From a virus, in IMG/VR virus record IMGVR_UViG_3300046684_000073, positions 1 to 24,823 of that record: 24,823 bases of DNA; one strand, written 5' to 3'. Made by a program: the position numbers and the translations under genes. The notes beneath the pieces were generated by a model. It saw only the letters and a list, made by a program, of their open reading frames with translations, did not search any database and had not been told where the DNA came from. This document shows positions 1,935 through 8,029 of this stretch, one piece after another. The first letter of the stretch is position 1; each line of letters begins with the position of its first letter.

Positions 1935-2118
1935 CAAATTCCGGCGGATCAATGGGAACGTCCCAGCGGGTCCGGTAGGTGCAGATATCGCGGGCGGTCG
2001 ACACGCCACAGCCGAACTGGGCGGCCAGGGTTTCATATCCGACCTTGCCGGGGACGTGGGCGGCGCGCATCTGGCGCACCTGGTCGGCGGTCAGCTTGGC
2101 GCGGTGGTGCTGCTTCAC
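1918..2118 (-). CDS. Small helix-turn-helix protein, possible late regulator
   Basis: This 66-residue protein is almost entirely one helix-turn-helix unit of the homeodomain/resolvase type. LTADQVRQMRAAH (about 9-21) forms the first helix, and GYETLAAQFGCGVSTARDI (about 27-45) gives the turn and recognition helix, followed by CTYRTRW. Similar modules occur in small phage DNA-binding proteins and next to HNH nucleases; no nuclease motif is present here. The ATG at 2118 overlaps the stop of the upstream replication gene (ATGA). Its position at the end of the early leftward operon, directly before a terminator and promoter-like sequences ahead of the terminase genes, is where lambda-like phages keep a late regulator. 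That role is inferred from position only. Confidence 0.75.
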   Translation of the reverse strand: MKQHHRAKLTADQVRQMRAAHVPGKVGYETLAAQFGCGVSTARDICTYRTRWDVPIDPPEFVDKRE

Positions 2119-3014
2119 GGCTGGCCCGCCTGCTCGATGCGCTCGCCCTCGGTGCGATGCACCTGTACCTGGTCGGCCAGCTTCACGAACTTCTGGTACT
2201 GGCGCACGCGCTCGGCGGTGTTGCGCTTGAACTCGGCCTCGGTCTCGTTGCGCTGGTCCACCTTGGCCTGCAGCCGGCGTTCGCGCTCGGCAGTGCTGTC
2301 GGCCAGCATCTGCTTCACCTTCGCCAGCTGGTCCTTCGGGCCACCGGAAAGTGCCAGTTCTGGCACCTTTTCACCTTCCGGACCTTCCAGCTGCGGCACC
2401 GCGCTTTCGTTCTCAGTCAGCGGCAGCTGGCCCAGGTCCGCAGCATGCGCCAGCAGCAGCCCCTGCGCGCTGTCTGGTGCTGGCGCCGGCAGCAGCCCCT
2501 GCTGGATGGCCTTGTGCAGCGCCTGCGCGTGGCTGGTGCTGTCCCAGCCCATGTGGACGGACCACCGAACCGACACCTTCGCAGACCGGGCCACGTTCAC
2601 CAGGCGGGTGTAGGCTTCCAGGAAGGTCTTGCGGCCAGAGATCGCACCAGATGATTCCAGAACCGGGCGGGCGATGCGTAGCGCTTCCGCTGTCTCGGCA
2701 GTCCAGACGACGGTTTCCCGCTCGTCCTGGCTGGCCAGAGCGATCGCCCAGGCCTCTTCCGGACCAGGGCGGCCGTCGCCGTTCGTGCTGGCCTCGACGT
2801 GTTCCACAATGTCGGCAGGTGTCGGCGTGAACTTCCCGCGCTTGATGTGGGCGCCGATCGCCGCGCGCACCTGCGGCAGCGGATACTCGGCCAGCGCCTG
2901 GAAGAACAGCGCCTTGGCGGTCGGGCTGACCAGCTTGGCCGCCGGGGTCTTCCCGAGAATGTCGAAGGCAGCGTCCAGCAGCTGCGCGAATTCGTCAAAG
3001 TCTTCACGCCTCAT
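2115..3014 (-). CDS. Putative phage replication protein (possible helicase loader)
   Basis: A 299-residue protein encoded directly after the O-like replication gene, the position occupied by helicase-loader genes such as lambda P. The N-terminal domain (about 5-75) carries a pattern I associate with small phage replication proteins: FFQALAEYPLPQVRAAI, then HIKRGKFTPTPADIVEHV. A middle helical domain follows (about 85-170). A Pro/Ala-rich linker leads to a charged predicted coiled coil (about 225-290, KVKQMLADSTAERERRLQ onward). There is no Walker A motif, so it is not a DnaC-type AAA loader. I chose ATG 3014 (AAGGGG seven bases upstream, overlapping the preceding gene by 11 bases) over the long upstream extension of the frame, which is Arg/Pro-rich shadow sequence. 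The loader role is inferred from position and size. Confidence 0.7.
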   Translation of the reverse strand: MRREDFDEFAQLLDAAFDILGKTPAAKLVSPTAKALFFQALAEYPLPQVRAAIGAHIKRGKFTPTPADIVEHVEASTNGDGRPGPEEAWAIALASQDERETVVWTAETAEALRIARPVLESSGAISGRKTFLEAYTRLVNVARSAKVSVRWSVHMGWDSTSHAQALHKAIQQGLLPAPAPDSAQGLLLAHAADLGQLPLTENESAVPQLEGPEGEKVPELALSGGPKDQLAKVKQMLADSTAERERRLQAKVDQRNETEAEFKRNTAERVRQYQKFVKLADQVQVHRTEGERIEQAGQP

Positions 3015-3810
3015 GAGCCGCCCCTTCGTTGTCATCGAAGCCCAGCAGGCGCTTCGCCTCGTCGGTGTTGGCCTGCGCCTGGCTGGCCACCGGCGCACGC
3101 GGGCCACCCGGGAAGCCGACCACGTTGCCACCGACAGCCGGGGGGCGCGGTGCGTTCTCGGTGCGTTCCTTACGCACCCAGCTGCGCCAGGTTGCCGACC
3201 AGTCGACCTTCGTGGCGGCCTGTCCCGACTTGGCGGTCCAGTAGTCGAAGAAGTTCTGGGCGACCAGGGACGGCAGCAGGTCGGGCCGTTCGGTCTTGCA
3301 ATAAGCGACGTCCTCGGGTGACGGCTTCCAGTCGGTGGGCAAGCGCGTGCCGCGCGCTGCGCTCTTACCCTTTTTAGTACCACTATCAGTGGATTTATCT
3401 ATCTCTTCTCTTCTCTTCTCTTCTCTAGCTAACGCATCACTAACGCTGTCTGCGTTAGCACCTTCCTTTGCGGCGTGGTTTGCCACCCGTTTCGCGGTCT
3501 GTGCGCGGGTTTTGGCTGACTTGCCGTTGTGCTCTTCGAAGCGCTCGATGATCACGCCCTCGGGCGTTTCGCGCAGCCAGCCGATCGACACCAGGGCCGC
3601 ACCGAATCCCCTGATGCCGGTCTTGCGGTCGATCGCCGCGGCACTCATGCCGGGCATCAGCCCCGTTTCGGTGTGCTCGTCCGCCGTCGACCAGAGCCAA
3701 TACAGGCCGCCGACCACCGTGGCCTCGATCGAGCTTGTCAGGTCGCACAGTTGCGACACCCGCGGGTCATCCCACAGGTTCGTGCGCACTTTGATCCATT
3801 CACCTGCCAT
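3004..3810 (-). CDS. O-like phage replication initiator
   Basis: A 268-residue protein with two domains. Residues 1-110 look like a winged-helix DNA-binding domain (GEWIKVRTNLWDDPRV, then GLYWLWSTADEH, then IDRKTGIRGFGAALVSIGWL). Residues about 155-217 form a second domain (LPTDWKPSPEDVAYC ... FFDYWTAKSG ... DWSATWRSWVRKE) that recurs in phage replication initiators. The two are joined by a hydrophilic linker (about 115-155) whose DNA is repeat-rich and looks like a replication origin (3380-3459). I chose ATG 3810 because GGGGGAA lies just upstream and the protein then begins directly with the domain. ATG 3843 adds 11 residues and has GAAGGTG upstream, so it remains possible. The gene sits between an unknown protein and the putative helicase loader in the leftward operon. 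Confidence 0.8.
   Translation of the reverse strand: MAGEWIKVRTNLWDDPRVSQLCDLTSSIEATVVGGLYWLWSTADEHTETGLMPGMSAAAIDRKTGIRGFGAALVSIGWLRETPEGVIIERFEEHNGKSAKTRAQTAKRVANHAAKEGANADSVSDALAREEKRREEIDKSTDSGTKKGKSAARGTRLPTDWKPSPEDVAYCKTERPDLLPSLVAQNFFDYWTAKSGQAATKVDWSATWRSWVRKERTENAPRPPAVGGNVVGFPGGPRAPVASQAQANTDEAKRLLGFDDNEGAAHEA
3402..3426. repeat. Five perfect tandem copies of TCTCT (AGAGA on minus strand)
   Basis: Twenty-five bases are five exact copies of a pentanucleotide. On the coding (minus) strand they are pure purine and encode about residues 129-137 of the O-like protein (an Arg/Glu/Lys run). The unit length is not a multiple of three, so slippage would shift the frame ahead of the C-terminal domain. 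The tract also gives extreme strand asymmetry, a feature of some origins. Confidence 0.85.
3428..3459. repeat. Three iterons with core CTAACGC / GCGTTAG
   Basis: GCTAACGC at 3428-3435 and ACTAACGC at 3439-3446 are direct copies with an 11-base period. GCGTTAGC at 3452-3459 is an exact inverted copy of the first. The arrangement gives both direct and inverted binding sites close to one helical turn apart, as expected for an initiator. The DNA encodes the linker of the O-like protein. Confidence 0.65.
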
Positions 3811-3845
3811 GTTTTCCCCCAGCTTTTCCAGTTGTCCTTCCATCC

Positions 3846-4274
3846 CTACACCTTCAGCGCGCCGGTGCGGTTAAATTCGTCCACCGCGTCCTGCGCCACC
3901 CTGGCGACCTTCACGGCCGGCACCGTGCGCAGGAAGTCCATCGTTTTCCCGACACCCTCGCGCAGGATCCGCAGTTCGTCGCCCTTTACGACGTGCTTGC
4001 CGATCTCCTGCGCCCGCACCTGAATGTCGCGCACCGCTTCCACCATAGCCTGCGCGATCGGCAGAACAGGGTGGCCATCTGGCGCCAGCCGCCGCGTCAT
4101 GTCGGCATTGCTCAGCAGGTCATAAATGTGCTGCTCTTCCAGGTGCGACTGGCCCAGCGCCAGCGATGCGGAATAACCCGGGAATTCCATCTTCTGCCGG
4201 TCGTGTAGGCCCAGCGGCGTCACCACCAGCTTCGGGCGGTAGGACTTGTCGCGTTTCTTCTTCGGTTTGCTCAT
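3846..4274 (-). CDS. Conserved-looking phage protein of unknown function
   Basis: I do not recognise this 142-residue protein. It starts with a very basic segment (SKPKKKRDKSYRPK), followed by a mostly helical body. Residues about 25-60 include FPGYSASLALGQSHLEE, residues 65-85 are a hydrophobic helix (PIAQAMVEAVRDIQVRA), and the end (TVPAVKVARVAQDAVDEF) is also helical. There are no cysteines, membrane segments or nucleotide-binding motifs. The basic N-terminus would suit nucleic-acid contact. I chose ATG 4274 because it overlaps the methyltransferase stop (ATGA). A longer frame reading to 4886 is the out-of-frame shadow of the methyltransferase. It lies immediately upstream of the O-like initiator in the same operon, so a replication-associated role is possible but unproven. 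Confidence 0.7.
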   Translation of the reverse strand: MSKPKKKRDKSYRPKLVVTPLGLHDRQKMEFPGYSASLALGQSHLEEQHIYDLLSNADMTRRLAPDGHPVLPIAQAMVEAVRDIQVRAQEIGKHVVKGDELRILREGVGKTMDFLRTVPAVKVARVAQDAVDEFNRTGALKV

Positions 4275-7836: not shown

Positions 7837-7916
7837 TGATTTACCTCATGTTTTGGTGGTTTTTATGGCTTTGCCGCAACAGAGCTTACCGCAAACAAGT
7901 TTCCTGATGCAACACA

Positions 7917-7944
7917 AACATTTTCATTGACGACATAAAATGTT
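7917..7944. promoter_or_regulatory. Operator-like dyad 1
   Basis: AACATTTT (7917-7924) and AAAATGTT (7937-7944) are perfect 8-base inverted arms separated by 12 bases, giving 28 bp in total. The right arm covers the -10 of the leftward promoter-like sequence. A second 28-bp dyad begins 36 bases further on. A dimeric HTH protein such as the 7564-7836 product would fit. Confidence 0.5.
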
Positions 7945-7963
7945 ATTGACGCACAACAAACAA
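7935..7963 (-). promoter_or_regulatory. Weak leftward promoter-like sequence
   Basis: On the minus strand TTGTTT (7963-7958) is followed after 17 bases by TTTTAT (7940-7935). The hexamers match the consensus at only three and four positions, but the spacing is ideal and it faces the rightward promoter. Transcription would begin near 7928 with a leader of about 90 bases before the HTH gene. Other starts in this AT-rich stretch are possible. Confidence 0.25.
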
Positions 7964-7973
7964 TGTCTATAAG
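7946..7973 (+). promoter_or_regulatory. Rightward early promoter
   Basis: TTGACG (7946-7951), a 16-base spacer and TATAAG (7968-7973) give five-of-six matches to both sigma70 hexamers. Transcription would start near 7980, about 50 bases before the first rightward gene. An additional TTGACG lies 19 bases upstream (7927-7932). Dyad 2 covers the whole -10 region, so repression by a dimeric protein is expected. The rest of 7837-8029 contains no supported gene. Confidence 0.65.
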
Positions 7974-7980
7974 ATGTTGT
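7953..7980. promoter_or_regulatory. Operator-like dyad 2 over the rightward -10
   Basis: ACAACA (7953-7958) and TGTTGT (7975-7980) are inverted 6-base arms, with an inner AACA/TGTT pair at 7959-7962 and 7975-7978. The overall length is 28 bp, the same as dyad 1. It spans the TATAAG hexamer, so occupancy would block rightward initiation. Confidence 0.4.
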
Positions 7981-8029
7981 CTGTAGGCAGCGCGTGGGGC
8001 GCTTCCTCGGCAACAAAACAGGGGACTAG

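Follow-up and report, generated by a model that had tools for sequence, protein, structure and literature searches.

A candidate lambda-like replication origin with phased iterons and a purine-pentamer tract inside a phage initiator gene

An origin candidate in the initiator gene

The DNA analysed here (the window) is a fragment of viral genome, the 24,823-base IMG/VR virus record IMGVR_UViG_3300046684_000073. Judging from the sequence, the segment 3363-3459, which lies within the inter-domain linker of a replication initiator gene, is very probably the replication origin of this phage. As an in-gene origin candidate of the lambda-like kind it has strong computational support, and it represents a distinct variant of that kind, with an 11-bp iteron lattice, a purine-pentamer unwinding element and an initiator from outside the O families of lambda. 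The anatomy, the low duplex stability, the conservation at the DNA level and the covariation of the iterons with the N-terminal domain of the initiator were all computed directly. The features concerned are the following.

3004-3843, minus strand: replication initiator gene (P0001, 279 amino acids), from matches to the PHROG 2509 and PHROG 9474 profiles
3466-3804, minus strand: coding region of the N-terminal domain (about residues 14-126), the putative iteron-binding domain, from the AlphaFold2 domain and the iteron class that tracks it
3452-3458, plus strand: iteron 3, inverted GCGTTAG
3440-3446, minus strand: iteron 2, which reads GCGTTAG on the coding strand and is spaced 11 bp from iteron 1
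3429-3435, minus strand: iteron 1, the one closest to the tract, again GCGTTAG in coding-strand orientation; relatives have the same 11-bp lattice
3402-3426, minus strand: purine pentamer tract (AGAGA)5, encoding REEKRREE, the presumed core of the unwinding element
3363-3442, unstranded: least stable 80 bp by duplex stability over the whole window, with two iterons, the purine tract and an AT-rich flank; resembles a DNA unwinding element (DUE)
3380-3392, unstranded: dyad CCACTATCAGTGG with a 5-bp stem, not significant alone
3154-3348, minus strand: coding region of the C-terminal domain (about residues 166-230), DnaT-like; unrelated domains replace it in relatives

Read 5' to 3' on the coding strand, the order is inverted GCGTTAG, GCGTTAG, GCGTTAG, (AGAGA)5 and an AT-rich stretch. 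An earlier reading, made from the sequence only, had reported three CTAACGC iterons (two direct at 11 bp, one inverted) and five AGAGA units, and all are present where it placed them. Apart from these iterons the window has no exact GCGTTAG/CTAACGC site, and their outer pair extends into a 9-bp perfect inverted repeat (3428-3436 and 3451-3459). When the initiator gene was shuffled with its codons preserved, any 7-mer occurred three times within 45 bp in 10 of 500 shuffles, and the longest pentamer repeat in 2000 shuffles was 20 nt. The tract is a run of 25 purines on the minus strand, the longest purine run in the window, the second longest being 13. Codon usage is peculiar over the same segment: the three AGA codons of the initiator gene all fall within the tract, compared with one among the 359 arginine codons of the 18 other open reading frames (ORFs), and the sole TTA codon of the gene sits in an iteron, TTA accounting for one of 465 leucine codons elsewhere in the window.

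The AT-richness noticed in the sequence-only reading proved stronger than claimed, since the least stable 40 bp (3392-3431), 60 bp (3372-3431) and 80 bp of all 24,823 bp fall here. The dyad CCACT/AGTGG of the same reading is also present, but it is not significant, stems of at least 5 bp being found in 43-47% of control 70-mers, and a functional hairpin was rejected because a stem this long is common among these controls. Ranked by low stability, 7906-7985 comes second in the window; it lies between oppositely oriented gene blocks and is probably a divergent promoter/immunity region.

The initiator matches PHROG 2509 ("replication initiation protein") across most of its length (E=1.6e-45; residues 12-231 on profile positions 1-255 of 277) and so belongs to this family; it also matches PHROG 9474 (E=2.4e-25). 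The match of its C-terminus to the DnaT DNA-binding domain is weak (16.5 bits, cut-off 25), and a PDB structure search gave no significant match. AlphaFold2 predicts two confident domains, at about residues 22-110 and 166-227, and a low-confidence linker at about residues 127-165, within which the tract residues 140-148 fall, in agreement with the proposed position of the element between two domains. The O-like PHROGs (277, 2365 and 678) are absent from the matches of the initiator, and lambda O has no match to PHROG 2509 or 9474. The term "O-like" is therefore acceptable for the function of the protein but not for its family; functional likeness to the lambda origin and membership among the PHROG 2509 initiators are separate matters.

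Conservation of the element at the DNA level

Among 13 relatives picked by protein similarity, 12 have this motif in the linker, or one close to it, and in the relatives the C-terminal domain is swapped for several unrelated ones. Their GCGTTA iterons come directly before the tract and, apart from a few cases, keep spacings that are multiples of 11 bp; in L013, with 70% GC, different 11-bp iterons of the GCGGAC type precede the same tract. In two independent phage groups, chosen solely by the N-domain protein, the synonymous diversity per codon is about 0.4 in both domains versus 0.00-0.16 over the iterons and the tract, and despite this low synonymous diversity the amino acids over the iterons and the tract are in places less conserved. 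Related phages without iteron conservation would have spoken against an origin; what we find is that iterons and tract are kept at the DNA level with the amino acids varying.

The coding of the linker peptide points the same way. The sequence A-REEKRREE, searched for with any coding allowed, has 36 instances in the viral collection, all of them AGAGAAGAGAAGAGAAGAGAAGA plus one wobble base, and all three arginines are coded by AGA in 36 of 36, even at 69% GC. The start of the tract is found in all three codon phases. Because it is the DNA that is conserved rather than the protein, the charged linker peptide appears to reflect a constraint on the DNA.

Recognition of the iterons

Iteron classes, assigned by preset motifs, could be given to 71 distinct N-domains, and these were compared in pairs, which are phylogenetically non-independent. 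Pairs with close N-domains share the iteron class in 96% of cases when their C-domains are homologous and in 89% when these are non-homologous, versus 20-25% for pairs with distant N-domains, whatever the C-domain. The iteron class thus tracks the N-domain and not the C-domain, and the N-domain is therefore most likely the part of the initiator that binds the iterons. The alignment of the N-domains is diverse, without conserved stretches.

The YdaU proteins of E. coli K-12 MG1655 (L587, 5120-5977) and of the Rac-like element of E. coli 442/2 (L144, 1228-2016) form a natural domain swap: the C-domain is common to both, and the N-domains, the iterons and the tracts differ. The 442/2 record was for this reason rejected as a proxy for K-12 Rac, and a link of the purine-type element to the known Rac origin oriJ was thus not established. 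MG1655 YdaU differs from the window, too, in its N-domain and iterons.

Distribution of the layout among phages

The tract was scanned for in viral contigs; the frequencies given are samples among the matches listed, and some of the loci are related. An unbiased scan for (AGAGA)4 gave at least 80 readable loci, at which 6-mers repeated at a period of 11 bp occur in 53% of the 70-mers upstream of the tract, 5% of those downstream and 2% elsewhere. A period of 12 bp is found in 34% of the upstream 70-mers, and the background for the two periods is 5-9% downstream and 2-3% elsewhere. Of 73 tract-bearing ORFs scanned, 59 match PHROG 9474 and 52 match PHROG 2509.

The repeat (AAAGG)4, equal in composition, had been intended as a negative control and was dropped as such, being itself preceded by 11-bp iterons; it is now regarded as a second class, and the mixed pentamer (ACTGA)4, with 11 matches in the whole collection and upstream repeats in 9% of them, serves as the true control. 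Repeats with a period of 11 or 12 bp stand upstream at 58% of the viral (AAAGG)4 loci and 71% of the (AAGGG)4 loci among the matches listed, and across AGAGA, AAAGG and AAGGG repeats the range is 58-71%. The tract is on the strand of the longest ORF at 73 of 80 and 75 of 80 of the listed (AAAGG)4 and (AAGGG)4 loci, respectively. AAAGG and AAGGG (L185-L264, L599-L678) here take the place of AGAGA after 11-bp iterons of other sequences. The layout is present in the named phages epsilon15, VW-6S, BUCT711, phiPSA1 and CBW1004C; AGAGGA-type repeats occur in E. coli 442/2 Rac and 673R7, and the Mycobacterium phage Panchino has ACAGGGGA repeats in the linker.

Many members have a second, distal iteron array within the region coding for the N-domain. 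In epsilon15 p23 (L141, 35179-35856) six sites lie at gene nucleotides 56-112 (array to 117) and four at 335-369 (array to 374), 11-12 bp apart inside each array. On the N-domain side, 60-79% of loci have copies of their own iteron, versus 10-15% downstream; no exact distal array is present in the window. The 70 bp downstream of the tract (L015-L094) are enriched in perfect hairpins of at least 6 bp (35% vs 14%), and 12% of these stretches have a C-run/C-run or C-run/G-run motif that is absent from controls.

Comparison with known origins

A few model phages, among them lambda, SPP1 and 80alpha, already provided examples of origins inside genes. In lambda, where the origin lies in gene O (and in P22, in gene 18), it falls between the two domains of the initiator, as in the window, where the role of the sites as initiator targets is deduced from their covariation with the N-domain. 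Both share the same coding-strand order, with repeated initiator sites followed by an easily melted, purine-rich and strand-asymmetric stretch. The AT-rich region of lambda follows the iterons and has almost all of its purines on one strand (PMC5043065), and the minimal unwinding unit consists of two iterons and this region (PMC7466680). The earlier suggestion of a lambda-style origin within the initiator gene is supported by this arrangement, its role as an origin being predicted from sequence. Its remark that the iterons and the purine pentamers are unlike those of lambda is correct as well: lambda has four iterons of 18 bp that start 20-24 bp apart and a tract rich in A and free of pentamer repeats, where the window has sites of 7 bp on a lattice of 11 bp and (AGAGA)5.

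In SPP1, oriL is part of gene 38 and has direct repeats as well as a DUE (PMC6316719). Complementation of 80alpha ORF20 in trans was unsuccessful, which the authors of that work took to suggest an origin within the gene (PMC5499656); for G38P/oriL and ORF20 the location is thus the one proposed for the window. Phage 80alpha differs from it in the longer period of the repeats, the TACTAATAATAATAG-type tract and the protein families. Its annotated putative origin (L586, 2175-2400) has iteron-like repeats and then TACTAATAATAATAG-type repeats that code for an Asn/Thr-rich linker. Close counterparts in arrangement are epsilon15 p23 and the Rac-like YdaU of 442/2, with 11-bp iterons abutting a purine repeat. 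The latter matches PHROG 2509 over its full length and differs from the window in its tract of three AGAGGA units; epsilon15 differs in its GCGGAC iterons and the additional distal array.

The iteron plasmids resemble the window in having helically phased iterons beside a DUE with repeats, and their Rep proteins (RK2 TrfA and others) bind one strand of the DUE and need all of its repeats (PMC4081077; PMC5043065). They differ in that the origin is outside the initiator linker and the DUE repeats are 13-mers, not purine pentamers.

Alternative explanations

Three observations weigh against the origin as described. The cumulative GC skew of the window, proposed as a check, has its minimum near 11 kb and not at 3.4 kb, with gene orientation as a confounding factor; epsilon15 does have a local minimum near its tract, but this is also near a switch of gene orientation. 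In the Pseudomonas-type relatives (L503-L582) two alleles of the tract alternate, a strict AGAGA one and the less regular, purine-rich AAAGAAGATGTAGAGAAGAATAAAGA, so that the element does not require exact pentamers. Most (AGAGA)5 in bacterial chromosomes is ordinary simple repeat unrelated to iterons, the full layout being found at one of 80 loci (L305) among the matches listed.

The iterons may instead be an operator through which the initiator regulates its own gene, the tract serving transcription or another role without melting. Initiator sites within the initiator's own gene could indeed repress or pause transcription, and the computed results do not separate an operator from an origin. 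We nevertheless consider this improbable, because no duplex in the window is weaker than that of the adjoining tract, as expected of an unwinding element, and because lambda, SPP1 and 80alpha have their origins at the same place. Less probable still is that the tract is a recombination junction, kept as a short shared homology for the exchange of N- and C-terminal domains between phages. Downstream of the tract, relatives with similar N-domains do have swapped C-terminal domains; such homology, however, may be a by-product rather than a function, and a junction leaves unexplained the 11-bp phasing of the iterons, their covariation with the N-domain and the different sequences of the tract. That the tract is there because of the protein, with REEKRREE as a charged helical linker and the repetitive DNA incidental, fits its place between the domains and the fact that every frame of (AGAGA)n gives cyclic REEKR and hence charged residues, but it is hardly credible and is rejected by the codon tests, given the exclusive use of AGA at up to 69% GC, the near-zero synonymous diversity of the tract, the AGAGA repeat in all three codon phases, and the purine repeats coding for other peptides (AAAGG, AAGGG, AGAGGA) that take the same place.

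A possible mechanism and its significance

For the origin at this locus we infer unwinding, strand capture and helicase loading by analogy with the systems described above. The N-terminal domain would bind the GCGTTAG iterons, which, given their 11-bp lattice, should point to roughly the same side of the helix. The strain of the array may then open the adjoining (AGAGA)5 and AT-rich stretch, the weakest duplex in the window; the initiator would hold one of the separated strands, plausibly the purine strand, and the C-terminal domain, perhaps together with the product of the next gene, would bring in the helicase.

A broader generalization, which we offer tentatively and regard as rather doubtful, is that a DUE made of tandem purine pentamers, whose sequence is interchangeable (AAGAG, AAAGG, AAGGG or less strict forms), may characterize a very widespread class of tailed-phage origins. 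An initiator bound every 11 bp could read the freed purine strand in 5-nt steps, as an iteron-initiator counterpart of the DnaA-trio, and the linker peptides (REEKRREE, KERKGKE and so on) would be by-products of the origin DNA.

In the open-access literature, most subscription papers being outside this coverage, we found no report of a purine-pentamer origin element. Helically phased iterons together with a purine pentamer repeat provide a simple signature that marks candidate origins across phages with differing initiators and connects each iteron sequence with an N-terminal domain. If this is true, origins may be predicted from sequence, a natural series of initiators and iterons becomes available for recognition studies, a common charged linker is to be reinterpreted as a constraint on DNA, and it becomes possible to test how an initiator of this type opens the duplex and keeps hold of one strand.

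Neighbouring genes

Between the initiator gene and a DNA methylase gene there is a 142-amino-acid ORF (3846-4274) without a PHROG match at E 0.01. The gene that follows the initiator is listed here.

2115-3014, minus strand: next gene, PHROG 6028 (unknown function), with a weak match to the PHROG 2289 helicase loader profile

This match (E=2.4e-4) covers residues 36-90 and makes a helicase loader a possible identity of the product. RusA, YbcO and terminase small-subunit genes are located nearby in the window.
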